NCBI GenBank assembly: GCA_964036195.1
Contig: OZ038451.1
Location: forward strand, 17,508,747-17,572,746
Reading direction: 5' to 3'
DNA length: 64,000 nt
DNA from: Sphaerolaimus hirsutus
Taxonomy: Eukaryota; Nematoda; Chromadorea; Monhysterida; Sphaerolaimidae
In this document: positions 2,588-64,000 of the stretch, in pieces
Position numbering within the stretch: the first letter of the stretch is position 1
How the letters are laid out: each line of letters begins with the position of its first letter
Translations under genes and position numbers: made by a program
Notes under the pieces: generated by a model
The model's input: the letters and a program-made list of their open reading frames with translations, nothing else
What the model was told of the DNA's origin: nothing
Databases searched by the model: none

Positions 2588-2760
2588 GGGGCAATCACAG
2601 ACCATGTAAAAAGCCCTGTAAAAAGTCAAAGGTCATACAAAGTGTCAAAAGTCATGGAAAATGCCCTGCTGCCATTCTGCAGGGCATTTCCCATGACTTT
2701 AGAAACTTTGCATAACATTTGACATTTTACAGGGCTTTCTACAGGGTCTGAGAATGGCGC
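2588..2760. mobile_element. Introner-family foldback copy
   Basis: The tips are GGGGCAATCACAGACC and GGTCTGAGAATGGCGC; a perfect CTG duplication lies at 2585-2587 and 2761-2763. The body is a palindrome of GTAAAAAG/GTCAAAAGTCATG words with the centre near 2672. It sits in the gene-free left part of the window. Confidence 0.8.
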
Positions 2761-8344: not shown

Positions 8345-11234
8345 CTAATCCCTAGTGGGCAGATCAAAGACAATTGGGTCATTTACCGGCTTATACCTCA
8401 CATTACAAATAGACGGATTGACAAAAGTCGTTGTACCATCGGTGGTTACCCCATAACCCTCGTGAATATGTCCGAACACGTGGTACAGGGGGCGGACTCG
8501 AAAAGTGACCGTTTGCAACAGTTCGGCGCACCCGACCCGGGGGCAGTCACGGACCCTGAAAATACACTGTAAAATGTAAAATGTCATGCAAAGTGTCAAA
8601 AGTCGTGTAAAATGCCCTGCAAAATAGCAATTCGGTCAGCATTTTGCAGGACATTTTACATGAATTTTAACACTTTTAACGACATTTTACATTTTACAAG
8701 GCATTTTCAAAAGTCTGGGATAGCCACCAGCCTGTCGCCGCGGTGCAGCATGTCGCCGTGGCCCAGCGGCGGCCCGTGCGTTATCAACACGTCCGTGTCT
8801 GTGGGATAAAGTGACTATGTTGTTTTATACAGGCTTGGAATTATAAGTAGTGTGAAAATGAGGTGGGGGGTTGCGAGGGTTCAATATATAGGCTTTTTCA
8901 AGGGTAAAAGGAACAGAAGAGTTAAAAAATCGCTAAACGTAGAAGAAAAAGGCTGAAAAAGGTACTTATATAAGAAGATACAGTACTAAAAATAGCCGAA
9001 AATAGGCAGGTATGAAAAGGTATGAAAATTAGCAATTTTCAGCAAAAATTTGGGTATAATTTCTCAAACATTGCTCCGAATAGCTGGACCAGGAGTCTCG
9101 AATGGGGGGGGGGGTTACTATACCCCAATTTTCGCTCAAAATCGCTATTTTTCCTACCTTTTAATAGATTTTCACCTCCAAAATACTAGTTTTTATTCCT
9201 ATATACCTATTTTTAGTACTATATGCTCTTGTATACCCATTTTGAGCTATTTTACATATACTTTTAGCGATTTTTCTCCCTTTTCTTCCTTCTACACCGA
9301 GAAATAGCCTATATATCGAGCTACCACAACCCCACCCCCAATTTTTTCCAGCTATCTATCTATCCCAAAGGCCGCTCAGCTATCCATCCATTCGGAGGGT
9401 CAAAATTCAAGATACCCCTGAGCTGGACGATCGGGGGATAGTAGCCAAAAGATTTGCCTCCGAATAAATTTATAGCTGTGCGGTTCGGGGGGTATCGCTC
9501 CCCATTGGAGACCCCTGTAGGTCACTTTTTATGAATGACACTACCGGAAGGATTTTTCAAAGCAAATCCCACCTTCAGTCAATTATCGATATGGAAACTT
9601 CAACAAACCATCTGGTATCCGATTCCACATCCGCAGTAGCGCATTTCCGCGATTCACATTGAATGCCCAGTTCAAATGCCGCGGCTGCCACGGCGCGCCG
9701 TAGAATTTGTACCCGTATAGCTGAAAAAAGGTTAGGATATGGATTTCGCATTTAAATCCCAATTACCACCTGATTCATTCTAGCATTTAAGAAATATCGG
9801 ATTTATTGAATAGGGTCGGAATGTGGAGCTTTTAGCCCCGCACTGGAATATAATTGAGGCGTCTAATTCTAAAAGTCGACAAGTCCACAAAATGTAATTT
9901 TGAGTAAATCGCATTTTAAGTTTCCGATCCAATTCCAGGCCCGTGGTGCATGTCCAATTTGGCTCTCTCATGGTTTTCATAAAGTTCCATATGTTGACAA
10001 TAAAGTGTCAAATTTTCAGCCCTTTCTCTCAACCCTTATGTGAAAAATTGGGTGTCCATAAATTTCCATTCGGTCAGAGCAAAACTGTTTCGGGGAGGGA
10101 ATTGGACTTGTCGCCTTCTTGCACGCGAGAACATTTTTGTTCCCGGGGAAGCCGAGGCTGCCTTATGGGAAAAAGTTGGACTTGTCGCCCTTTAGAAATC
10201 GGTTTCCATAGTGGACTTATCACATTTCTAGCGTTTTTTCCCATAAAAAAAGGAAGCGGAGGATGGACTTGTCGCCTTTTAGCCCAAAACTAAGTGGACT
10301 TGTCGACTTCTTGCCCAAACTTTTTGCATTTTTCCCCAAAAATGTCAGATTTGGCACTTTGCCATATGGGCATGTGAGGTCAAAAAATTTATGGAAAATG
10401 ATGAAAAATGTGCAGAAGTAGCCCCAGATGACGTTTCTGGGCCTAACTCGAAATTTTCATATTTTGGACTTGTCGACTTTTAGAATTGGACGCCTCAATT
10501 GGGGAATTGGCAGCCCCAAAACTTTGATTGAATGGAAAAACTGACTGTAACATGAGAATCGAACAAATAAGTGCAGGAAGTGAGCAGTCGCTCCGGACTG
10601 TCATCTTCATTGTGCTTGCTCTTCGAACTGGTTGCCCGGTCGAAACTGAGCTCGTGATTGCCGGCGACAACCAGCTTGTGCGGGTGCGGCAACGTGCCCA
10701 GGGCCTCGTTGAATTGTTCAATTTCATTGAGAGCGCCTACAAACATAGAAAAATTTGATCAGTGTAGGCGGCCAAAACGTCCTAAACGCAAACCTGTAAA
10801 TGTGAAATCCCCCGCGTGTATAAGGATATCACCGTCTGGTATTCTATCTAAACACCTGTGCAGGCGACTGTGCGTGTCGGACAAGCACACCACGCGGATG
10901 GTGCCCTCCGGCTTGGGCTCCGACGAGTCTACCAAAGGTAGGGGCACGGTGTCGCAGCGCAGGCCGTGGCTAGACACCAAGTCTGCCCACGCCTCGTTTG
11001 GATCGTCGGTGAACGGATGCACCTGTGAAAAGTGCCAATTGTACGCAAAAAAAAAATTATGTGAGATACGGGTGATTTTGGCGCATTGCCAAGCATAGCT
11101 AGTCAGCCGATTCAGGTAGAACGACCTGATGCGAAATGTGAAAACCTCACCGTTATTCGATTGCTAGATTCAGGCGCGTCGAAATCCGCTGTCTCAGTGT
11201 CGTTGTTGTTAGTCTCTTCACTTTGCGAACCCAT
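8345..11234 (-). CDS. MPPED-type metallophosphoesterase (6 coding exons)
   Basis: Coding exons, in transcription order: 11151-11234, 10794-11022, 10546-10736, 9609-9720, 8728-8798 and 8345-8566 (or 8345-8536 if splicing is exact, see findings). The product is about 302 residues. Metallophosphoesterase motifs occur in order: SDTHS and HAGDF (metal ligands), AGNHE, THGPP and FGHIHEGYG. The order and the C-terminal FDLP ending match the animal MPPED1/MPPED2 (UPF0046) family, which are metal-dependent phosphodiesterases. The first exon encodes an acidic, low-complexity N-terminus (MGSQSEETNNN...) and the ATG at 11234 is the first in frame. Mammalian MPPED2 is known to carry Gly in place of His in the GHxH motif; here the His is present, so activity is likely more canonical. 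Intron 5 consists wholly of a foldback repeat. Intron 3 carries a 650-bp element (9852-10500). The family call is strong; the last splice acceptor is uncertain. Confidence 0.9.
8540..8727 (-). mobile_element. Introner-family foldback forming MPPED intron 5
   Basis: On the coding strand the element begins GTGGCTATCCCAGAC directly after the codons for HRGDRL and ends GACTGCCCC, then CGG and the codons for VGCAELL. In other MPPED proteins the corresponding residues are contiguous. Flanking triplets CTG and CGG are a decayed target duplication. The exact end lacks AG (CCCCCGG), so the plausible acceptor is the in-frame TTACAG at 8567-8572, leaving about 30 nt of element in the mRNA. Confidence 0.8.
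9852..10500. mobile_element. AATTGAGGCGTC element, MPPED intron 3
   Basis: Its inverted ends are AATTGAGGCGTC and GACGCCTCAATT. The body repeats GGACTTGTCGACTT and ends in the inverse GTCGACAAGTCC. A second copy at 29941-30579 has the same order of segments, so the interior is conserved as well as the tips. Confidence 0.8.
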
Positions 11235-12551: not shown

Positions 12552-15500
12552 TCACTTCTTAGTAGGGCAGAGCAGTCCACTGAACGTGTCGCCCAGCCCG
12601 CCGCTGCCCCCACCCCCAAAACTGCCGGCCAGCCTCCCCAGGAGTCCGCCTGACCCGCAGAACATCTCGGTGGCCTTGGACAGGTCCAGCGCCGACGTCT
12701 CCACGTCCTTGGGCAGGCGCGCTCGCAGCCGTTTGCACTCGGAGCGCACCTTGTTGACCACGCCGCCGAACTTGCCGTCGAGGACCGGTGAGAAACAGAT
12801 CTGGGGGGGGGGGTGAAGGTGGTTGTGGGGTAAAACGATGGCAAACCCTCCTAAAAAAATTATTTATATTTTTAAGTGTTTTTTCCTAACTGAATTTTCG
12901 AATTTTCGAATTTTTCCTCAAATTAATTTTCGAATTTAATTTTTGAATTTTTGAATCTTTTTGGACAATATTAGAATTTTTTGGCTAGTTTTCGAATTTT
13001 TTCAAATAATTTTCAAATTTTTTTGGAAAATGATTGAAATTAAAGCTTTAAAAACAGTATTTGGGCTGTTTTCATGTTTGGATTACTTTTTTAAACTCAC
13101 TGTATTTGTTGGAAATACCCCCACCCCTCCTTGAATTCGCCGCTTTCCCTCAAAATACCCCCAGGTCTGAGTGTCCACTCTGAATAAATAAACCCTCTGA
13201 GTGGGTAATTTGAGGAAATACAGTACCTATTTTCACTGTAAATTCATATGGTTTAGTAAATTTTGCACAAAAAAGTTTGACATTTTACATGACTGTTAAC
13301 ACTTTGCATGACATTTGACATTCTACAGGGCATTTTACAGAATCTGGAACTGAAAGTGACAACTGATGGACTTGTCGGACAGCGCTCTGTTCAACAACTT
13401 ACAACAGCAACTCAAGACAAATTTTTTGATGGAGTGGTGTCTGTTTTAGCAGAAGTAGCTCAACCACAAAGCAAGAGTATGTTGGGTGCATTCCTCAACG
13501 GATCTGTCAGGTCCATTGCGGACACCATTTCAACGCTTTTTGACGTTTTTCTTCTTCACATTACTGTTTTTCAGACGCACCTCATATCAATTGTTGATTG
13601 AATTATCACACTTAATGTAAGAATGCATTTTGTGGCCTCCAATTCCCTGAAAAATGCGAAAAAAATTTTCGAATTTTCGAATTCATGAATTTTCGTATTT
13701 TGAGAAAAAATCGATTTTTAAGTGTTTTTTCCAGGGGTGAAATAAAAATTCGAAAATTCCAAAAAAAATTCGAAAATTCGAAAATGTTTTCAAATTTTCG
13801 AATCTTTTTTTGCCATCGTTAGTTGGGTGGCTAGATCATTTTTTGGGAATTTTGGCCTAATGTGTTCATCGATATTTTTCGTCTGTTTTTATGAGTCTTT
13901 GTGAATGTTCGGAAGTGTTTCCACATTTCGTCCCTCATCTGCATCTCTTGCAGTTTTGACATCCCAGAGACGTATTTCCATAGAAGTATAGATACTCCGA
14001 AACACAACTTCATCAACAACCGGTGGGTGATTCAAAAAGCGTTATTCTAAGCTCACCGGTTCGCCGTTCTTCTTGTTCTCCTCGCACAGTATGTTGATGC
14101 CGCACACGACAAAGTCCTCTGTGATGATCGGCCCGCCCAATGCTGCGAGCGATTTGAACATGAGTATATCACAAATGGCACTATTAACGATGGCAAACCC
14201 TCATGAAAAAAGTATTTTTAACGACTTTTCGAATTTTTCCCAAAATAGTTTTCTAATTTTTTAATTTTTTAGATTACTTTTCGATTTTTTGCATCAAATT
14301 ATCGCATTTTTGAATTCTCAGTCTCAATTCATCTGAATGTTTTACAGACTTCTACACTGTTACTGCGCACATTGAGATTCTGCAGCTACAAAAAAATCGA
14401 AGCAAAGTTAGTGTTTTTGTTTTTTTTTGTTGCATTTTTACCAATTTTCAACCAAAAGTACCCGAAAAATTCGAAAATTCGAAAACGTTTTCGAATTTTC
14501 GAAGCTTTTTTTGCCATCGTTAGCCACTATATCAAATGGCCGCTGGCTCACTGTCGATGGGATTATTATCCGTCCTGATGAAGTTGCCCTCCCTGCCGGA
14601 TCTGACCCTGGCGCCGACCACACTGCCCGCGGCGTTCCTCCCAATAGCGTAGGCCTTGTCGGGCGCGCAGTGCGTCCGTTCGTCGATGCGCATCGCCCAG
14701 GGGCAGGGCGCGCTGCCGCCGTGGAAACCCGGCTTGGCCTTGTCCCAGTCGGGCACGCACGACTTGTGGCAGTCCTCCAGCTGCACCACGGCGAAGTCGT
14801 ACACCTTGCGCATGGTGCCCGTGTTCGACGTGCACGCGAGCGAGTCGACGGTGTGGTGCACCGCGGTCACTGGCTGAGAGGGTTCTTGTTGTAGAGAGGG
14901 CATTGTAAAGTTTTTCATTCATGCCCACGATTAATATTCGCAATACTCCGCTACGAAGCCCGTAAATAACATGGAATTTACTGTGTTTTTGTTTAAATCT
15001 TGAAAACCTGCATTAGTTGAGAATTTGAACCCAGTATCCAGAATTTCCAGGGGTCTCCAGAATTTTTACCCTCGCGTATTTTCAAAAGACAGCAAATCGC
15101 ATTCCCCGAGTCCGGAGGGAAACAAGTTGAAAGAATTGTTGGGGGTTCGCGGGGGTTCCACAAAAATGGATCGTCAAGGTGTTGAGAAGAAAAAAACGGG
15201 AAAAAATCGCTAAAAAGGAACCTAACTACCGTATTTCCTCGAAATACCCCCAGGGGGTTTATTTTTTCATATTGGAAATTTTGAGGGGGGGGTATTTCGA
15301 GGGTGGGGGCTTATTCGAGGGGGGGTTATTATTTCGTCAGAAATTTTCGAGACCGATCGTAGTAAAGAATGCTCTATTTCATACCCCAAACTGGTAATAA
15401 ATGCAGCGAACGAGGTTATACTCAACGATGGAAAAAACACAGAAATTGAACACAGAAACTCATTGAGTTTCTGTGTTTTTGTTTTACACAGAAACACGGA

Positions 15501-17813
15501 AACTCAAAAATTTTGAAAAACCCAAAACTCAAATGAGTTTTTTTATTGGAGAACACAGAAACACAGAAACACGGAAACACAGAAAATTTTTTTGAGTTTT
15601 TTCATTGGATTGGAGGAATACTGTGCTGTGGTTCACTGAACAAAATAAGAAATGTGCACAAGTCCATATCAACAGATAACAAAGGGTCCAAATTTAATAC
15701 AACCTAAGTAACAAAATGGCACCTGGTCATTATGACAATGATTGGAATTGTGTTTCACACTGACTGATTGACTTGCACCCACCAGCTCAGAGTTGAAACC
15801 TACCCCCAAAGCTGCCAAAAGCATAACCTGGTCACTTGTAAGGTATTTTTAAAACTTTAGTGGGTCAAAAGATGAGTTAGTCAAGTGAAACCAGTAGCGT
15901 AAAATGTCATCAAAAATACAAAATGTTCAACTTTTATTTTACATTTTGATTGACTGTGTACATTGTACAGACTATTTTACAGGGTCCCTGGACATGCATA
16001 AACAAATTTGTAATGAGAACACCACTGTTTTTGCATTTAACCACTGTATTTGAGTAAAAACTTGCATTTTATGAAAAAACTCGAGTTTTTATGAAAAAAC
16101 TTGAGTTTTTACAAAAAACACAGAAATAATAACAGAGTTACTCAAGTTTTTTTCGTGGAAAAAACTCAAAACACAGGTATTCATTTTTGAAAAACTCAAA
16201 ACACAGAAAGTGTTTTTTTCTGGAGAACTTACCCATCGTTGGTTATACTTGGACTTATCAACGTGTATCGCTACACGGAGCAGTCTATGTGTACCAACGA
16301 TGCAAATTGTTCCCAATTTATACGTCATGTATGTCGTATATACATGATGTACCTTCTTCCAGACGATGTGCCTTAATGTCCATGATGTACCTTATTTCGA
16401 GGGGGGGGGGTATTTTTTCCCCAGCTCGAAAACACCTGGGGGTATTTCGAGGGGGGGTTAATTCAAGGGGGGGGGGGTATTTCGAGGAAATGCGGTAGGT
16501 GAAAAAATAGCGATATTGAGTGAAAATTGTGGCAAAATAGCTCAAAATTCGCTCCAAGCGAACCCATTGATGCAGAGCAGTTTCGAAGTGAAAATTGTCG
16601 CCGCGTTCGCAATCGGAGTCCTCATCGAAGACGCAATGCGCGGGCACGATGGCCGCGATGACGGGCGGCTCGCTGGCCACGTTGTTGATGTTGACCAGTA
16701 CGCCGGTGCACTTCAATTTCTTGCCGTTGGGCGTGCGCGCGTACAGGTAGCCGATCGATTCGCGGTACAGTCGATTTATCGACGTTTTCGCAGTGCCAAC
16801 TGCGAATGTTTTTGCGCAGAAATGATCATTTAGTCGAGATGTCGTGGCTGGTTGGTGATTTGTTATTTTATTATTGATGAGATAAAAATCAGATTATAAA
16901 TAAACACCATATCAAGCGCAGTGTTCACCACAGTAATGACAAGAAATGGCGATGGAAATGGCTCGCAACGATAAACCGTATTTCCTCGAAATACCCCCCG
17001 GAATTTTTTTCAGAGTGAGAATTTTGAGGGGGTATTTCGAGGAAATACGGTAGGCATGAAAGTGTTTTAGAGCTCACGGCAGGGGTACATTCACAAACAA
17101 CATGCCAAACTGACTGTAAAACTCCGCCTCTGGGCTCTGTCTGTCGGGCATGTCCGACTCCTTGAACGACAACGTGGTCGGCTTCAGCGGGCCGTAGGTC
17201 CAACCGCGCCGAGTGATGTCACCGCATCCGCTGTTCACCTTGCACGATGGCGCTGTTGTGTTGATGGGGGGGGGGGGGGGTGAGTTACTACCTAGTTGGA
17301 CGGGTGAATGTGAGAAGTGGCGTCAATACCTACCAGACACTGTAAAGTTCCCTGTAAAACGTAAAATGTCATGCAAAGTGTCAAAAGTCGTGTAAAACGC
17401 TACGGAAAAGCAAACGTCCCGCATTTTACATGACATTCGACATTTTTCATGGCATTTTACTGGCTCTAGGATTGCCCCCTGAAAAGGTTCCATTGGTCAC
17501 TTACGGTCATCAGCACCCCCAGACAATTCAGGCCCATCTTCCGGCGCTGCCTTGAGTTTGTTGGCATCTCTGAGCCACCATTGGTTGGCTGAGCTGGCTG
17601 TCTGCGTCACTGTGTATCTGTCCGATGCTTCAGTCAGTTGTGCTGCTACGAGCAATACTGGGGGCACTCTCAGACACTGTAAAATGCCATGTCAAATGTC
17701 AAATGTCAATCAAAGTGTCTAAAGTCATGTAGAATGGTGTTTGCCATTTTACAGGGTATTTTACAGGGTCTGGGAATGGCACCTGCACTTGTGCAAAATA
17801 ATAATTTGAACAT
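12552..17813 (-). CDS. Secreted serine protease homologue B (catalytically dead)
   Basis: Seven coding exons: 17783-17813, 17505-17657, 17115-17252, 16564-16799, 14552-14873, 14057-14142 and 12552-12800; 404 residues. The first two exons join into a signal peptide starting MFKLLFCTSAVLLVAAQ. The trypsin-like fold shows as KCTGVLV then PAHCVFD (His and its Cys partner), YDFAVVQL (Asp position) and DTLGGPIIT where active enzymes have GDSGGP. The catalytic Ser is Leu here, so it should not cleave. No CLIP domain is apparent; the 60-residue N-terminal segment has a short Cys pair (CKVNSGC). Exon lengths 138, 236, 322 and 249 nt are identical to paralogue A, which supports every junction, including the weak GTTCGC donor after 16564. 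The C-terminus is a Gly-rich stretch ending LCPTKK. Intron 1 is a complete foldback element. Likely role: extracellular pseudoprotease or cofactor, inferred only from the family. Confidence 0.88.
14185..14522 (+). mobile_element. hAT-like element, TAACGATGGCAAA tips, gene B intron 5
   Basis: It is flanked by GGCACTAT and GCCACTAT (7 of 8). The body iterates TTTTCGAATTTT. A longer relative with the same tips and body spans about 12834-13820 in intron 6. The two make up most of introns 5 and 6. Confidence 0.78.
15423..16241 (+). mobile_element. hAT-like element, CAACGATGG tips, CACAGAAA body
   Basis: The perfect 8-bp duplication GTTATACT lies at 15415-15422 and 16242-16249. The body iterates AACACAGAAA / ACTCAAGTTTTT words. 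A decayed introner-type fragment lies inside at about 15895-15995. It is located in gene B intron 4; a shorter relative is at about 26802-26989. Confidence 0.85.
17331..17478. mobile_element. Introner-family foldback copy in gene B intron 2
   Basis: The palindrome carries CAGACACTGTAAAG and GGCTCTAGGATTGCCCC ends; CTG follows at 17479-17481 and the left tip is shortened. It lies wholly inside an intron that paralogue A also has, so it invaded an existing intron rather than creating one. Confidence 0.7.
17658..17782 (-). mobile_element. Introner: foldback element that is intron 1 of gene B
   Basis: The 125-bp intron equals a 122-bp foldback element (17661-17782) plus one copy of its 3-bp target duplication. 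On the coding strand it starts GTGCCATTCCCAGACCCTG and ends GAGTGCCCC followed by CAG. The same CAG precedes the GT, so removing the intron restores an uninterrupted GCAGTATTG inside the signal-peptide codons. The interior has the family words GTAAAATG and TGTCAAATG in inverted arrangement. Paralogue A has no intron here. Confidence 0.9.
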
Positions 17814-20812
17814 TGTTCTCCAGATGACTGTGGAAGGTAGATACGTAGGTGTAGGTACCTAATTGATTTTCACTTTTCGTTTTGTAAATCAACTTAAGTT
17901 GGACTTTTATTTATAAAACGCGCGTGTCGTCCGTATACACAAATGTTTTTACTGGTTTAGTCAGTGAACACGTCACCGTTCTTTCAAAACTCCACGCCCC
18001 AGGTTGTTTACGTTGATTTTGATGCGCATTAGCAGAAGATCAAGATAAAATCCATGAAAACAGACAAAATGTGCAGGTGCAGGACAAAACACGCGTTGTT
18101 GTTTTTGTTGCCGTATTTTTTCTAATACAACGGCAGACCTCCAAAAGAACGGCACTTCCAATAGAACGGCAGGTTTTGGCGCTTTTTGCACTCACAAAAA
18201 AATAGAAGGGCAGTCTTCAAGAGAACGGCAAGTAGATATTACATTGGAAGAGTGACGAAACACAAATGTATTCTTGACATTGAATATAGGTATATTACCT
18301 ATATACTGTATCCTGTGCGGAAGGACCAGACCTTATCTTGGCTGTCCCTTATGTATGAGTAAAAATTTTTAAATTGCTTGCACGTCGATCCGCTCTACCC
18401 TGAAATTAAATTAAATTAAATTAAAAATTGACGTTAATTACAATCAATGAAAAATTAAAAGCGTACGTTTGCCATTTTGCAGCGCATTTTCCATGACATT
18501 TGCAGAGTTGTTAAAAGTAATGAACTTTTTCAAAAGTAAACGTAAACGTAAAGTATTTATTTTTTACTCACAGGTGAGTACAGAAAACGTTAAGTATTTA
18601 TTTTTTACTTTTACTCATGAGTAAACGTGAGTAAATTACTTTCGTCACTGGAAAATGTAAAAGTGGGTATTTTTGTGAAATTTTGCCCCGATTTTCATTC
18701 AAAATCACTAATTTTCGAACTTTTCACCATAAAATTCTCTATTTACTTAATGTGTTTTTTCCTATTTTTGTGCTATTGAAGTGCCTTGAAAAACCCCATA
18801 AAAATCCTGTTTGAAATACGTTTTCTGTACTCGCGTACTTTGAAAAAGTATGCGAGTAAGTGAGTACCGGTATTTTTTTCTGGAAGTAATGTCAACATAT
18901 TTACGCAGTACTCAAGTATCTTTATTTATCGAGTATTTTAAAACGTAAATATGTTTTAACAACTATGGACATTTGACAGTTTGCATGACATTTAACATTT
19001 TACAGGTCTTTTTACAGAGTCTGGGAGTAGCACCTGATATTGAAATGTTGCTCAAGTTTCATTAATAGTAAAGCTGTGTCCAAATGAAAAATGTGTGGAT
19101 AAAATTTGTGGAAAAATAGAGTGACAGCCTCTAATAGAACGGCAGGTAAAAAAGTTGATGAAAAAATAGAACGGCGCCCTTCTAAAAGAACAAATGCGGT
19201 ATATAGATTCTGTTCCTTGTAAGCCAAATAAGCAACATGCAAACATGAGTAAATTATATGTTAATGATTTTACACTCTTGGTGTCACATGCACCATGTTA
19301 TTAATGAATAGAAACTCTAACATAACTAGGTAGGTATTTCACAATTACTAAAGAGCGTTCCATTTTTATTCTGTTTGGAATTCGAATTTCTGTATGCTAT
19401 CTTCCTTTCCGGCTCAACAATCGCATATCCCTGGGCATTGTGATGCTTTGAGGTGTCAATTATTTTATTTAGTATTGTGGTGTCGTATTGTGTAGTAGTG
19501 TTTTTAGGTACCGTATTTTCTCGAATAGTTCCCCCGGGGAATTATTATTATTTTTTATAAGTACCTATATGTAGTATTTTCGAGCATCAGTGCGGGGGGG
19601 ACTATTCAAGGGAGGGAACTGTGCAAGAGGGGGGAACTATTCAAGAAAATACGGTATACCTTATATTGATGTCGTCAGCTTTTTACTGTACCTTAGAGGG
19701 TACCTTTCGAAAGATTTAGCAAACATTTAACCAACAGTGAACAGTAACGCAATTCATTTGATCAAACTTGGAATGTAAAAAATGGTGAATCTGGTGCCAG
19801 TTCCGCAAATTGAGCAGTGAGAAGTGAAGTGGCAAATGCGAAGTGAATTGAGAATAAAATTGGCAAAAGCGAAGTGAAATGGCAAGTAAATTGGCAAAAG
19901 CAAAGTAAATATAAATATAAAAAAGTGATTTCCCTTCGCTTTTGCTAATTTCCTTCTCAATTCACTTCTCACTTTTCATTTCATTTCGCATTTGCCATTG
20001 CACTTCTCACTTGCATTGCGTTTGCATAACTGGCCCCAGCCCTAATACACGTTGACACAGAATTGTCTTGGTGCCCTTCCGTACATCGTGTTCGTGGTCT
20101 GCCATGTTTGGTCACTGTTTTTACAATTTCACGCGCCTTATATTAAAAAGGTATACAAACTAGTGGAGTATTAGATTAGTACCTCATGTGTATGTTTAAA
20201 TAATTTTCCGCTTTAAAAGCAATACTGAGGCCTCAAAAAATGTATGTTTTCTCGATCTAGATAACGACCGCTTCATTTATGTGTTTTTCTATGGGTCCCA
20301 GATTTATCGAGCTCGGTTTCATTGCCTTTTCATACTTTTGTCACGTACGTTTTTCTTTTACTGTTCTGCCGTATTACCTCGAAATACCCCCCCCCCCCCC
20401 ACTCAGAATAACCCCCTCAAAAATCTCACTCAAAAAAATGAACCCCCGGGGGGTATTTCGAGGAAATACAGTATCTATTTTTATACATATTTATCTAATA
20501 CACCTGTGATGCAATGACATTGGCAGTGGTCTGAATAAATGGAATGAAATGAAAATCGCGAAGGTTCGTGTTGGTCCCATTTCACTAGAACTCATTCAAA
20601 ATAATAAAAGACGTGTAAAATTGTATGACACATATAATTTAAAACTTGAAAGGCACACATTCAAATATCATGTTTTACTGGTCGAAGCGACTATCACTTT
20701 ATCAGGGTAGATTGCAGTGCCGATTGAATCACATCGTCATGGACGCACAGATAATTTTACAGGTACACTTGATGAACATACAAATGCACATAATCACATC
20801 AAAACGCTATCT
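17814..20812. other. Intergenic region between paralogues B and A
   Basis: It holds the 5' side of gene B and the 3' side of gene A. It contains the interrupted AGAACGGCA element (about 18110-19203), a GAGTACTTT-word repeat (18500-18960), a TACCGTATTTTCTCGAATAG element (19510-19655) and the palindrome 19794-20036. No third paralogue or fragment was found. Confidence 0.5.
19794..20036. mobile_element. Palindrome with GTGCCAGTTCC tip
   Basis: It starts GTGCCAGTTCCGCAAATTG after CTG and ends GCATAACTGGCCCC before AG. The body iterates GAAGTGAAGTGGCAAAT on both arms. It is a tip-relative of 22087-22766 with another body word. A third relative, body word CTCTTGACTT, is at about 31905-32099 after CAG. 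Confidence 0.65.
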
Positions 20813-23800
20813 TTAAAGTCTTAATACCCCGCGGTTGCACAGCAACTGCTTGAAGGTGTTACCCAAACCAAGGGTATCGCCGCCGGTTGACTGCGTTAGC
20901 CGATCTAACAATCCGCCGCACAGAAACTGCTGGCCCAGTTCTGGGTCGAGCACGCTCGTTTCAACTTCCTTTGGCAACTTGGCTCGTTCTGTGCGAATGG
21001 TTGCGCGTGCCCGATTCACCACCGTGCCGAATAGACCGTCCAGTACGGGTGAGAACAGCACCTGGAAAATGTAGGTAAAAACCGCCGTTTCAGTGTTCTC
21101 ATTTTGTGTACTCGTCGGCCAGCAAAGTATGCTCCCAAAATTGCTTATGTCTTGGGCGATAACGAATCAGTATGATGCACGCACTTTCACAAAAAAAAAA
21201 CATTTCGAAACAAAAAAAGCGAAGTCACGTACAGGCGACGAATGTATTTTACAACGTTTTTTCGGTTTTGGGGCAGTTTTATTTTATTGACAATGCGCGT
21301 GCGCACACTACCGTATTTCGTCGAAATACCACCCTGGGGGTTATTTTTTAAGAGTGAGAATTTTGAGGGGGGGATATTTCGAGGGGGGTAACTCAAGGGG
21401 GGTTATTATTTCGCCAGAAATTTTTTGAAAACCCAGTACTAATTTGTTGTTTGTAACATACGCAGACGTAGAAAAATGCGACAAAAACCACCATATATAA
21501 CAGTATACAGAGTATATGAGTCTACAGACCTAAACAAGTATGTCGATGTTATAAACAACGTGATAATGTAACACAGTTATAGTTTTTAACGTGTGTTATG
21601 CATTGCCAGTTCACAAAATGCACCTTTTGTCATGTACGTTCTATTTACACTCAATGGGGGGGGGGTATTTCAAGGGTGTTTATTAATTCATAGTGCCCAT
21701 TTTGAGGGGGCTTTTTCGAGGAGGGTATTTCGAGGAAATACGGTAGTTTACTGCCACATTTTGGTAAACTCATAAATCAGCTTTGAATGCATTTGAGTTT
21801 ACTGGAATGAGTTATTCTTAATCCCCATCAACTGCAGTTGACAGACACCTCAGCACCAATAACGTCATGGTGGAGTGCTTCCTTCAGAAAAATACATAGC
21901 GTGCGGTCCGCTGACTAGGTATACTCATTTTGGAAGTACTCACCGGTTTGCCGCCGCTCTTGGCAATCAGGTTCACCATACCGACGACCACGTAATCGTC
22001 GGTGATGATCGGACCACCGGTAGCTGAAAGTTTGTGTCACATGACGATTTGAGAGTCTAAAATGTTATCAAATGAGCCAACGCCAGGGGCCAGTTCCGCA
22101 AGTTTACAAGTTACTAGTTAAAACATAAGAGTTGAATAAAGTTACAAATGGTGAGTTAAGAGTAAAGTTTAAGTTTATGAGACAAGTGAAAAATTTAAGA
22201 GTTGAGTTAAAGGTTAAGAGTTGAGTTGAAAGTTGAGTTAAATGTCAAGAGTTGAGTTAAAGGTTAAGAGTTGAGTTAAAAGTTGAGTTAAGAGTTGAGA
22301 AAAAGGTTAAAAGTTGAGTTAAAAGTTGAGTTAAGAGTTGAGAGTTAAGAGACAAGTGGAAAATGATGATAAAATAATACTAAAAATAAAAAATGTAAAA
22401 TTGGCATCGATACAGCTGTTCGCTGGCATGGTGCCAGTTTGGAATGCACAATATTTTCTTCTTTTTTTAAAAACATTTTCCCCCATTTGTCTTTTAACTC
22501 AACTTTTAACCTTTTTCTCAACTCTTAACTCAACTTTTAACCTTTTTCTCAACTCTTAACTCTTAACTCAACTTTCAACTCAACTTTTAACCTTTTTCTC
22601 AACTCTTAACATTTAACTCAACTTTTAACTCAACTCTTAACCTTTAACTCAACTCTTAAATTTTAACTTGTCTCTTAAACTTTAACTTTACTCTTAACTC
22701 GCCATTTGTAATTTGACTCAACTCTTATGTTTTAACTAGTAACTTGTAAACTTGCGGAACCGGCACCAGAACTGTAAAACGGTCAAAATTGAGCAAGCCC
22801 TGACAACAACAGCGAACTCACATTCAATCGGAGGACTGTCCACTCTGAGGAAGCTGCCTTCCCTGTTGGCTCTGGCGCTAACGCCAACCACGGTGCCGGT
22901 GGCGCTGCGGCCGATGGCGAACACCTTCTGCGGCGCGGCGTGGTTCGCGTCGTCGTAGGCCATGGCCCAGGGGCAGGGCGACGGGCCCCCGTAGAAGGTG
23001 CTCTTTGCCTTGTCCCAGTCGGGCACGCACGCCTTGTGGCTGTGCTCCAACTGCACTATTGCGTAGTCGTAGGGTTTTCTGATGATCGACTGAGCCGCTT
23101 GGCAGGTGTACGCCTCCGGCAGGTGATGCACCGCGGCCACGCGCTGTTTTTGTGGGTAAGGCACGTTGATGGGTGTGTATAAATCTGGACAACATATTTA
23201 CACCATACAAGGCAGTCTGGTGCCAATCCCTGACCCTGTAAAATGTCAAATCTCATGCAAAGTGTCAAAACTCGTGTAAAATACCCTGGAAAATTGCAAA
23301 CGTACGTTTTACATGACTTTTGAAACTTTGCATGACATTTGCCGTTTTACAGGGCATTTAACAGGGTCTGGGACTGCCCCCACAACCTACCCAAATATAG
23401 GTGGCAGTCTGGAACTCGTAATTATCCGCGCGCTCGCAGCCCGACTCGGCGTCGAACACGCAGTGGCCGGGCACCAGCGCCACGATCATCGGCGGCTCGC
23501 TGGCGATGTTGTTGACGTTGATCAACGTGCCCGTGCACTTGAGCTTGTCGCCGGACGGCGTGCGCGAGTACAGGTAGCCGATCGACTCGCGAAACACTCG
23601 GTTCGTTGTTGTCGAGACGCTGCCGACTGAGGATAGGGTTGTTTTCGCTATTGTTCCACTTAGGGCCCACACGCACTAGTTGACATCGAAATAAATGTCA
23701 ACTAAATAATTAAACGTGACACTTAATTTTCATTGTTTCTGTCAAGTGTGATACTTTTAATTAATTTGTTGTGTTATTTAGTTGACATTCAGTTGACATT

Positions 23801-24327
23801 TATTTGCGATGTCAACTAGTGTGTGGGGGCCCTTGCTGTCTTTAAAAGGTATCACTGCTGCAGACTTGCTGCAAACTGTTCCATGGCGCAATTCGGTTCA
23901 AAAAAATCAACTCACTGTCGAATTCAGCGCTGGGCGATTGAAAGTCGGGCACTTCGCTGATCTTGAACGGCAGCGCCGACGGTCTGAGCGGGCCGTAGTT
24001 GTAGCTGGGCGTGGGCGACTTGCCGCACACGCCGTTTTTGTTGCACGAAGGAGCTGCGGGTGCGATGCGATGGATTTTGTCAATGCTAAGCAAATGTTTT
24101 AACATGGCAGCTTGTCAATATGCGAGAAATTTCCACTCACGATCGTTTGCAGCACCAGTGAATTCCAACGGTGCGGGGGCCTTCGCTTTGACTTTGTTGC
24201 CGTCTCTTATCCAGTAACTGCTGGCCGACTCCGGCTTGCTCTGTTCTATGTGGTATGGGTCAGTGGCGCCATCGATGCACAGTAGAAGAGCCGCCGCATA
24301 CGGTAGAATGGTCAAAATCACATTCAT
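20813..24327 (-). CDS. Secreted serine protease homologue A (Ser to Thr)
   Basis: Six coding exons: 24141-24327, 23916-24053, 23391-23626, 22822-23143, 21944-22023 and 20813-21061; 403 residues. The ATG at 24327 opens a clear signal peptide (MNVILTILPYAAALLLC). The catalytic-His motif PGHCVFD is near residue 163, YDYAIVQL (Asp) near 213, and ESTGGPIIT near 295-299 replaces GDSGGP, putting Thr at the nucleophile position. It is therefore probably a non-catalytic serine protease homologue; residual activity from Thr cannot be excluded. Intron positions and phases match paralogue B throughout, except that codons 1-62 are in one exon here. Tandem orientation and equal exon sizes indicate duplication. 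Introns carry repeats: an ACTAGTTGACA-tip foldback in intron 2, an introner-family copy in intron 3, a 680-bp palindrome in intron 4 and TACCGTATT elements in intron 5. Confidence 0.9.
22087..22766. mobile_element. 680-bp palindrome with introner-like tips, gene A intron 4
   Basis: The tips are GGGCCAGTTCCGCAAG and CTTGCGGAACCGGCAC, flanked by a perfect CAG triplet (22084-22086 and 22767-22769). The arms are built of iterated GAGTTAAAAGTT-type words and pair along almost their whole length. Tip asymmetry (GGGGCC at one end, GGTGCC at the other) and the CAG duplication match the introner family, while the body is different. Confidence 0.78.
23220..23380. mobile_element. Introner-family foldback copy in gene A intron 3
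   Basis: The element reads GTGCCAATCCCTGACCCTG to GGGTCTGGGACTGCCCC, preceded by CTG and followed by CAC. It is about 160 bp and palindromic around 23300. It is located inside an intron shared by both paralogues, again a secondary invasion. Confidence 0.8.
23663..23832. mobile_element. ACTAGTTGACA-tip foldback, different body, gene A intron 2
   Basis: The ends are GGGCCCACACGCACTAGTTG and CAACTAGTGTGTGGGGGCCC. The body consists of AAATGTCAACTAAATAA-type words rather than the GGTCTGTG type of 30788-31010. It takes up most of the 289-bp intron. Confidence 0.75.
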
Positions 24328-28171: not shown

Positions 28172-28343
28172 GTGCCACTCCCAGACGTTGTAAAATGTCA
28201 TAAATACGAAGTGTCAAATGTCATGTAATATGTCAAGCGTCCGGTAAAAAATAGATGAAAATTTTACATTTTACAGTGTATTTACTATTTTACACGACTT
28301 TGATATATATTGCATGACATTTTACAGCGTCTCTGAGTGGCCC
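28172..28343. mobile_element. Introner-family foldback copy
   Basis: The tips are GTGCCACTCCCAGACG and CGTCTCTGAGTGGCCC; flanking triplets are TAG and CAG. A second, more decayed relative follows at about 28372-28528 (ends near CCAAACCCTGTAAAATG and GCAGGACCAGCCC, then CAG). Both lie downstream of the last syntaxin anchor exon. Confidence 0.7.
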
Positions 28344-54383: not shown

Positions 54384-57300
54384 ATGATGACAGTATCTGA
54401 TGGTGCCCTACATTCGGACATCGAAGGCAGTTTCCAGTGGCAAGCTGCGCCCGCCATAGCGCAGCCAAGTGCAGAACAAACCAGTGATTGTCTCAAGCGG
54501 CGTGGTGAAATGCTTATGCAAAATCAGGTGCGGATTTGTCTACTCTCTGTGGTGGCTAGATTGAATATTTAAATAGCGTGTCTTTGTTATGATAGTGGTC
54601 TATCTGCGGGAACCCCCAGACCTGTAAAATGTCCTGTAAAGACCCGCAAAATGACCTGTGCCTGTAAAATGGCAAATGTCATTCAGAGTGTTGAAAGTCA
54701 TGTAAGATGCTTTGTAAAATAGCAAACAAATGTTTGCCATTTTACAGGGCTTTGACACTTTGCATTAAATTTTATAGGGCATTTTACAGGGTCTGGGAGT
54801 GGCACCTGGGCCATCTCAGTAGCTATGTTGCTCTGCGTTGTCCGTGAACGTTGTTTTTGTTCAATTTCAGGCGCCATCGTTTGCCGCGTGGAAGCGACAA
54901 TCTGAGCAGAAAAGGGCGCACTATCAACAGACCGCTCAACTGACACAGGAAAAGGAGTGCCAAGACACTGATTTCTTAAGACGGAGGTTTTTGGAAGAAC
55001 GCCAAAAGAAACTGGAACAGCAGGCGAAAAGTGCCGCTCACGAGCGCAACGCGAGCACCAGTGGAATGGTACATTTTTAAAGATTTGCGTTTACTATCTT
55101 TCCCATGGCTGCCGTGAAGATACGTGTTCACTTTGAAAAAAAGGCTCGATCTTCATTCAAAATTCATCCAGAACATTTTGCAACTTGCAGCCTACCCCGA
55201 TTGCCCCATCGATTGGTCACGAGGTGATGACCGCTCAGCACGCCGCCACCGGCTCAATTCACACTCAATCGACTAGAAAGAAACCGGTATGCTATTCTGC
55301 TTATTTGATATTTTGCCTAAATTTGACTCAACTATTGTTGTTAGCCTTTGAGTCAGCCAGATGCGCCGCATTAGAAGTTTATTGCCTTTTGGCCATAAAA
55401 CGTTTCTGACAAAGTAAACATTTCTTGGTCGTAAAATCTGTTCCGTAATTTTTCTGCTTCTCGATGTTTGTAGGGAAGGGATTATCCTATTTATTTTATG
55501 TTGTCGTTCATGAGCCCTACTTCCATGCGCGCTGTTATTTACACATGCCGCGTTTTCATACACCAGTCCGTTTCTCTAGATGCACATGCACCGCGTTCCA
55601 CCTCGCTACCCCCATCTGTTCCAATGTTTGGTGTCATGATGAAACACCTGGCTGGCGCCTGTCGGTTGCGTATAATGGTGTCAGTCTGATGTGCGTATGT
55701 TTGTGATCATGCAACAAATCTTTTGCGGTCACATATTAGGTTTGCGTCGGCGCGTTCAATTTGGATAGACAAAGATTTTATCGGCGGCACACAATTATGA
55801 GTGTTATTCATTCAACCAACAGCATTTCCAGTTCAATACATGCATGATAATATTTCATAATCCCCGCGACTGCAACCCACTCAGTCAGTCCAATATCAAC
55901 CAGTAAAGATCTGCCTTACACTACACGACCCAATCAAAACAGTTGCACGTGTCCAAGTGCATGGTGGCAAACAAAGGCGCCACATTCATTACCGACGCTC
56001 ATGAAATGTGAGGGTTGGTCATGCATTTTCTGGGGTCGCGTGCCCACTGCGCATACGCGCCTGTGTACGCGCGTGCACATGCGCACTGTTGTGTATACGG
56101 TGGCGGTCGGAATATTGAATAAATGGGGTCTAAGTGCATGAGACACGGGATGAGCCGTGTTCCACTCAGCGGGGGCGGGTCGCCGTTGGTTTGATCTTTG
56201 CCATTTGCGTAAACACAAGCCAAATATTGGGTGGGGTTGGCGAAATTGGTCGACCTGCCACTAAATGCCTTACCCCGCGCGTGCAATTTCGCTACTCTTT
56301 GTAGATTAACATTGGTCTTTGAAATCACGTTTCACATCCGCACATGGGGGCGCCGCTCGGCGGCGGGGCAAATGCAATGGCGCCTCGGCCAGCTAACAAC
56401 GGGCGCAGGTCGTACATATGCAGCCTCGGCTGTCTGGTAGCTAGCAATTTGCTAACCGCCGCCGCGCCCGCCCAGGGTGGCTCATTGGGCCCCCTCCCGG
56501 ATTGTTTAGCGCCGCCCCGCCGGTGTGAAATAGACATGTAAAGTGCACGGCGGCGGTGTCAAAGTGCTCGCGTCAGGTAACTCTCGTGTGTACTCTTTGA
56601 GTGTTCATGGTGTCGGTGCGGCCATAGCGGCGCGGTAGAGAGCGGGCGCTATTGCCGCCCGATTGATATATTGCCGTGTGTGTGTACAGTGCGGCGTAGC
56701 GGGGCGGCTGGCGCGGTTCGCTTCATTTGCGCGCAAACGGGGACGCTCGTCTGAATGTCTGAATCTCGCCCGAGTCGGCCAGTGCGCGCTTTGTTTTTGC
56801 TTCTGCTATTTATACCCGGTCTTGTGTCTCGGCCAAATGTTATGCGCCGCCAGCGAGTTATGGTGCTAAATTGTGGTTGGGGGAAGTGATGCCCTGATGC
56901 GGCATTTATTGGGTTGTTTACATTTTCGGACAAGTTCTTTGAGAACACATTTAAGTTGCTTCACCATAGGCATTAACGACACTTTTGAAAATGTGTTGTC
57001 GTCTTGTCAAAGTGAACCAATGGGAGGTGTAGTCAAGTCTGTTTGGCCTTGATGGCAGTCGTTAATGAATGAACGCCGCGTCAATTTTATGATCAGTTGT
57101 GTTTTGCTTTGTGTTCTTGAGCCATTTTGACGACCTTGCAGAGGGCAACGCTTTTTGCCTTGCCGTTTCGCGGTCACCATTTTGGTGGGGAATTTTTGGA
57201 CATTAGGTACTATGAACGGCGCTCAACTGTCGCTATCTATAGTCCGTCGCTGATCACGTCTGTGGCTGGCCAGACATCTTTATTCATAATAAATAGACAA

Positions 57301-63093: not shown

Positions 63094-63860
63094 GTCACCA
63101 GTGATCTTGTCAGAGTTGAACGGATTGTGTTGTAAATAGACTTGTTTTGTGTTCTTTTAAAAGAGTTCTTCTAAAAAAGTTAAAAATCTTTTGTGTTCAC
63201 CTTATTCACCGATCACATTTTTCATGCACATAAATACATGTAGGCGCACTGCACACGGATATTTACTTTTGCAAAAACGTTTTTATATAGATCCGGTTTA
63301 AAAAAACTTTTTAAAAACCGTTGACAAACGGCCGCCATATCTACGATAGGTAAGCTTTTCCTTATGAATGTTTCCGTCCGCTAGACCTACAAAAAAAACG
63401 TTCGAACGAATAACTTAAAATTTCCGTGTGCGGTGCACCGTGAGTGGGTAAATCGATTGTTCGGAATGTTCAAACTAGGGTTGGAATGTTTCACACCAGT
63501 CGCGGTGCCTTTGGCGCACCACACTGAAATTTTCAGCCGTGTGCTCGAATGGTTTGTGTACGCGGAACTACAAATGAGGAAAACGTATAACGAAAACGTT
63601 TGATCTACCTACATGCAAATTGCATAAAGATTTTCATTGCTTCATATTTTTTGTGTGCCCGTTTTTCGCTCAAAAATTAGAATTTCTGACGATCGGCTTA
63701 CCCTTTGGATCGCCTTTCGGAATTAAATTCAAAGCAAAATTTTTTTTAAACTACCAAGACTATTTCAGTGATGTATTTAAACAATGTCAAAACGGTAATT
63801 GGGGGTGCTGAGTAAATGATCACATTCTAACGGTTTCACACTTGGCAAGTGCACCCCTAG

Positions 63861-63985
63861 TGGCAGTCCCAGACCCTGTAGCGTAAACTAGTGTCAAATG
63901 TCATGTAAAATGACGATCAAAACAAGAAAAAAGATATTACTGAACTTTGCATGACATTTTACACTTTATAGGGTCTGGGACTGGC
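63861..63985. mobile_element. Introner-family foldback copy
   Basis: It reads TGGCAGTCCCAGACCCTG to AGGGTCTGGGACTGGCA, with TGTCAAATGTCATG body words. It is one of the better-preserved tip pairs and lies downstream of the Q-rich gene. Further fragments of the family are at 13268-13352, 15895-15995, 18962-19033 (followed by CTG) and 34742-35110 (preceded by CTG). Confidence 0.7.
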
Positions 63986-64000
63986 AATCGCTGTGGTTTT

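Follow-up and report, generated by a model that had tools for sequence, protein, structure and literature searches.

Short foldback elements with CWG target duplications as candidate introners in the nematode Sphaerolaimus hirsutus

The origin of introns is an old question, to which introners offer the best living answer. As described in the main text of a survey of these sequences, introners are non-autonomous DNA elements, many of them with TIRs and/or TSDs, that make an intron at insertion; one splice site comes with the element and the TSD provides the other, as in the Chrysochromulina example, which carries the 5'SS and co-opts the 3'SS, and introners were recorded there in only two animal groups (PMC9860276). 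The word Harbinger is absent from the main text of that survey. NuwaI, which belongs to the PHIS elements (PIF/Harbinger, ISL2EU and Spy), is presented in the text of PMC4482050 as an element of animal genomes with a 5'-CWG-3' TSD and a TIR that usually starts with GGG, and the word 'intron' is absent from the main text of that paper. In the available portion of PMC13326754, introners are mentioned once and a family of GTGCCA-tipped copies is not described. Our literature search found no description of such a family in the texts covered, which for PMC9860276 were those outside its supplementary tables, where a listing is possible.

The family that we describe here is like the Chrysochromulina introners in that it would carry the 5'SS and take the 3'SS from the TSD, but whereas those elements have 4-bp TSDs and no TIRs, it has a 3-bp CWG TSD and long foldback TIRs. 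It resembles NuwaI in its CWG duplication, seen at exact tips of the CAG type (2504) and the CTG type (2351). As for the termini, the right tip is GGGGCA and the left tip, whose letters were preset by the search, is GTG and not GGG. Unlike NuwaI, the members of the family are short; coding capacity was not seen in them, and neither a DDE nor a Myb/SANT gene has been linked to them. MITEs such as Tourist are short, high-copy elements with TIRs and a 3-bp TSD of TWA. The present family shares their small size, high copy number, TIRs and TSD length, but its TSD is CWG and it is predicted to work as an intron; from PIF/Harbinger elements proper, too, it differs in duplicating CWG rather than TWA.

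The copy from which the analysis started lies in gene B, in a window of 64 kb (the whole stretch of DNA that was analysed), close to the related gene A. The original prediction held that intron 1 of gene B is a foldback element plus a single 3-bp CAG duplication, that its donor GT is the tip of the element and its acceptor AG belongs to the duplicated CAG, and that excision restores the reading frame MFKLLFCTSA|VLLVAAQ. The features concerned are as follows.

17658..17782, minus strand: gene B intron 1, consisting of the element and one TSD, as read from the sequence
17661..17782, minus strand: introner/MITE copy of 122 nt, with tips GTGCCATTCCCAGAC and (other strand) GGGGCACTCTCAGAC
17658..17660, minus strand: CAG, the 3' TSD copy, with the predicted acceptor AG
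17783..17785, minus strand: CAG, the 5' TSD copy, the last exon bases ahead of the donor GT
17783..17813, minus strand: gene B exon 1 (MFKLLFCTSA...), 31 nt
17505..17657, minus strand: gene B exon 2 (VLLVAAQ...), 153 nt, followed by GTAAGT
24141..24327 (24327-24141), minus strand: gene A exon 1, 187 nt, with the homologous codons unbroken, followed by GTGAGT

On the minus strand, the order is exon 1, CAG|GTGCCATTCCCAGAC...GTCTGAGAGTGCCCC|CAG and exon 2, and both the composition of the intron at 17658-17782 and the assignment of its donor and acceptor were upheld at the level of sequence. The foldback arms (17660-17720/17723-17783) are 72% complementary, and a stop codon is met when the intron is read through. 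Removal of the element with one CAG is predicted to leave the gene B coding sequence whole. In agreement with the proposed frame, the joined gene B peptide aligns end to end with gene A exon 1, scoring 71 with BLOSUM62, whereas none of 500 shuffles exceeded 8. We also verified that the corresponding codons of gene A are uninterrupted (187 nt, compared with 31+153=184 nt in gene B). The further claim that all other introns of the two genes agree in position and phase held for the next two introns, the only ones compared, which by eye have the same place and phase. The exons of genes A and B that were run against Pfam had no match there, and a query of the whole genome with the N-terminal sequence returned only A and B and no third member. 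By eye, the product of the two genes looks trypsin-like.

To place this copy in its family, we searched the genome (348.5 Mb, 762 contigs) for the element tips. This revealed 2504 exact occurrences of the CAG-flanked tip CAGGTGCCANTCCCAGAC (CAG|GTGCCANTCCCAGAC), 8035 occurrences of the same pattern with at most one mismatch, CTG tips included, and 2351 exact occurrences of the CTG-flanked tip CTGGTGCCANTCCCAGAC (CTG|GTGCCA...), with 0 in the reversed-pattern control in each case. The exact tips of the two types are almost equal in number (p = 0.03 for the CAG excess), and with nearly half of those counted flanked by CTG, the target duplication of the family is CWG. We then sampled contig C1 over about 0.46-9.28 Mb, taking 90 exact-tip copies; they come from a list of 100, itself an incomplete run along C1, of which the other 10 copies were left out. 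Seven of the 90 were without a partner tip, which left 83, and 77 remained when 6 duplicates were dropped. Among the 83, CAG formed the right flank in 55 and other sequence in 28, and 70 measured 116-200 nt. The tips were GTGCCANTCCCAGACCCTGTAAAATG on the donor side and GGGGCANTCCCAGACCCTGTAAAATG at the opposite end (GTGCCA versus GGGGCA); on the left, the search pattern had itself specified the CAG and the first 15 letters of the tip. C occupied position -4 in 50/77 copies on the left and 40/77 on the right and is thus favoured on both sides, implying a target of C|CWG|G. A blastn search of the element against a phage collection gave no match. Genes such as those for cadherins, STRAD and VWD point to an animal host; the arthropod marker Chitin_bind_4 had 0 matches, a weak result given that the control genomes were silent as well.

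It had further been proposed that the family is an introner, with a genome-wide search for introns with the same ends as a check. When this check was run on the sample, exact introns were found to recur in unrelated conserved genes, in support of the proposal. In 15 of the 90 C1 copies the interrupted sequence is recognisable as coding: 12 of these have some support from Pfam or PDB, and 3 were identified by eye. Joining of the flanks yielded a calmodulin-like protein at L024 (8.4e-19 for the best chain), STRAD at L119 (PDB 2wtk, 1.4e-15), OSCP1 at L069 (Pfam, 1.7e-17), PAN at L090 (Pfam, 5e-8), LRR at L025 (Pfam) and C2H2 at L073 (1.8e-7). Cadherin matches lay on either side of the junction at L038 and L112, and at L111 downstream only by Pfam, the remainder being read by eye; Pfam support was weak for L109 (0.009), L084 (0.016) and L107 (0.004). 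The cases counted by eye were L089, for its similarity to L090, together with L027, which we take to be SMYD, and L083, presumably an S9 peptidase, neither of which had a Pfam match. L110 and L114 also appeared coding by eye, yet had no Pfam match and were left out of the 15. In addition, a BLAST match on another contig, outside the 90-copy sample (L008), restored alanine aminotransferase with an ungapped junction (PDB 3ihj, 1.3e-20), although this fragment had no match in Pfam.

The right flank was CAG in 13/15 exonic copies, and the intron boundaries were those of the element and TSD in the same number; at L073 and L119 the acceptor needed a few bases past the tip. Similar sequences therefore stand as introns at many unrelated gene positions (15/90 and L008), while an intronless homologue with unbroken codons is available for one pair only, gene A against gene B. 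Applied to all 2504 exact-tip copies, the proportion of 15/90 would give some 400 introner introns, an extrapolation from a single stretch of contig C1. L089 and L090, separated by about 23 kb of C1, are related PAN-type genes with an introner in both; the two copies probably represent one insertion, which is probably older than the duplication of these genes.

As a control, the same flanks of the same copies were joined in antisense. For Pfam, the best frame of each strand was chosen by rule (68 sense, 59 antisense) and trimmed to 45 aa on each side, and L128 was left out of both sets, giving 67 sense and 58 antisense fragments. Domains meeting or flanking the junction were present in 7/67 sense fragments and in 0/58 antisense ones (sign test p = 0.016 for 7:0). 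Four of the seven span the junction (L024, L025, L069 and L090; p = 0.125), L025 by three residues, and the other three are marginal (L038, L112 and L119). The sole antisense match was to GDT1, at L126, with E 0.03 and 26 residues from the junction. Open frames of at least 30+30 codons separated the strands little (46/77 sense, 39/77 antisense).

The foldback structure was analysed at the RNA level. The focal copy has a predicted fold of -34.2 kcal/mol (z -5.3), with 0/200 dinucleotide shuffles as low. For the 72 copies no longer than 240 nt, duplicates included, the median z was -11.4 against mononucleotide shuffles. In these predicted folds the terminal AG was unpaired in 71/72 copies and the GU in 60/72. 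A decoy acceptor, UUUUACAG, was present in 47/72, in 44 of them at a distance of 19 nt from the end, as in the focal copy, and in 3 at 31 nt; in 45/47 it was predicted to be paired over at least 6/8 bases, and the hairpin may be what hides it. Since 19 is no multiple of 3, use of the decoy would break the frame of conserved downstream domains, and the terminal CAG should therefore be the main acceptor in those genes.

In light of these data, we are confident that gene B intron 1 is an introner, namely a MITE, non-autonomous and NuwaI-like (PIF/Harbinger-related), whose insertion point was a CAG within an intronless coding stretch. A NuwaI-type transposase would have cut and duplicated CWG, so that the upstream CAG was kept as the exon end, the element tip furnished the GT donor and the downstream CAG became the acceptor. 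Splicing would then remove the element and one CAG and restore the mRNA exactly, from a transcript whose hairpin may leave the end GU and AG free and hold the decoy paired. The proto-splice consensus is MAG|G, which C-CAG-G fits; counting against the proposal, the donor consensus is GTRAGT and the element's GTGCCA is far from it. More broadly, it may be that a CWG-targeting Harbinger-related transposon was pre-adapted to intron-making because its target C-CWG-G equals MAG|G, that a single tip change of GGG to GTG made it an animal intron factory whose foldback RNA hides the decoy, and that somewhere between hundreds and about a thousand genes acquired introns in this way, a scenario for and against which we see the chances as even. 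A large animal introner family with a target rule readable from sequence would explain new introns at MAG|G sites, and the element could supply genes with new introns while hardly damaging the encoded proteins. This leads to a testable idea: any CWG-duplicating transposon should become an introner on gaining a GT tip.

Could an ordinary MITE instead have landed inside an older intron, its match to the splice sites arising by chance? Passenger copies do occur in other introns of A and B, but in gene B not one base of the intron lies outside the element and TSD, and unrelated conserved genes repeat this exact fit, which renders this explanation extremely improbable. Nor is it at all likely, if slightly less improbable, that exon 1 of gene B is mis-modelled, with the start elsewhere and the element upstream or in a UTR. 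The gene model was drawn from sequence only, chance signal peptides come easily and the gene B protein matched nothing in Pfam; set against this are the full-length alignment of the joined peptide with gene A exon 1 (71 vs 8) and the independent recurrence of the same rule in other genes.

The explanation that deserves most weight among the alternatives, though still an unlikely one, is that the intron was not gained in B but lost from A, the introner being older than the duplication of the two genes and its loss in A precise. Only A and B were found by the N-terminal query and no outgroup roots the pair, and the paralogous copies L089/L090, both with the introner, indicate that duplication after insertion probably occurs. 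However, loss in A requires one extra exact event, and A bears no footprint of it. Insertion into gene B after the A/B duplication, as originally proposed, thus appears the better account, and the direction of change would be a gain in this gene.

In the window, a search allowing up to 3 mismatches found the 15-base tip 16 times, against a shuffle mean of 3.2, and nhmmer found ~10 copies in the 64 kb, partial or degenerate ones included. Those outside gene B intron 1, with one host gene, are listed here.

2588..2760: copy with a CTG..CTG duplication (CAG on the other strand)
8348-11163, minus strand: host gene of the next copy, an MPPED2-like metallophosphoesterase gene whose first part was recognised by eye only
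8540..8727, minus strand: CTG-type copy at an exon junction of the MPPED2-like gene; the donor side has the GT tip, and the element end lacks AG
17318..17481: passenger copy in gene B intron 2
23220..23380: copy in a gene A intron, 10 nt past the likely donor and not at an intron boundary
28172..28343: copy flanked by TAG..CAG
54607..54805: copy flanked by CTG..CTG (by eye)
63860..63987: copy without a clear duplication

Turning to the CTG-type copies, the exons of the MPPED2-like gene joined around 8540-8727 matched PDB 3rl4 (6e-31). An internal TTTTACAG acceptor in this copy would preserve the frame at the cost of ten extra residues, and the intron is likely spliced through it, with the ten-residue tail retained. 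From this one case, CTG-type copies, too, may give rise to introns, though less exact ones. The near-equality of CAG and CTG tips rules out a fixed polarity of the element toward CAG. It also speaks against the introner reading in one respect, being a smaller depletion than the 15/90 exonic copies would suggest; the weak depletion of CTG-type relative to CAG-type copies may be explained by CTG-type copies becoming introns as well.

PF13359 (DDE_Tnp_4) is present in the genome. The commonest DDE_Tnp_4 family was tried as a possible autonomous partner, and no partner with the tips of the introner was found there: it has other ends, and the focal tip is absent in 29/30 loci, which may not reach both ends of that element; in the remaining locus, L058, one focal tip lies outside the shared DDE_Tnp_4 element. 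The members of this family (L039-L068) share about 2.55 kb, are mostly about 98% identical and appear young. Their profile match covers about 633 nt and in most cases includes 4 TGA codons, which suggests that the transposase gene contains an intron of about 190 nt. A palindromic MITE in gene A intron 2, at about 23650-23845 (GGGCCC...CACACTAGTTGACAT), has ends that by eye resemble those of the 2.55-kb family. A second palindromic repeat, ccgtatttcctcgaaatacccc...ggggtatttcgaggaaatacgg, was recognised by eye at 15226-15310, 16980-17050 and 20385-20470 in the window.
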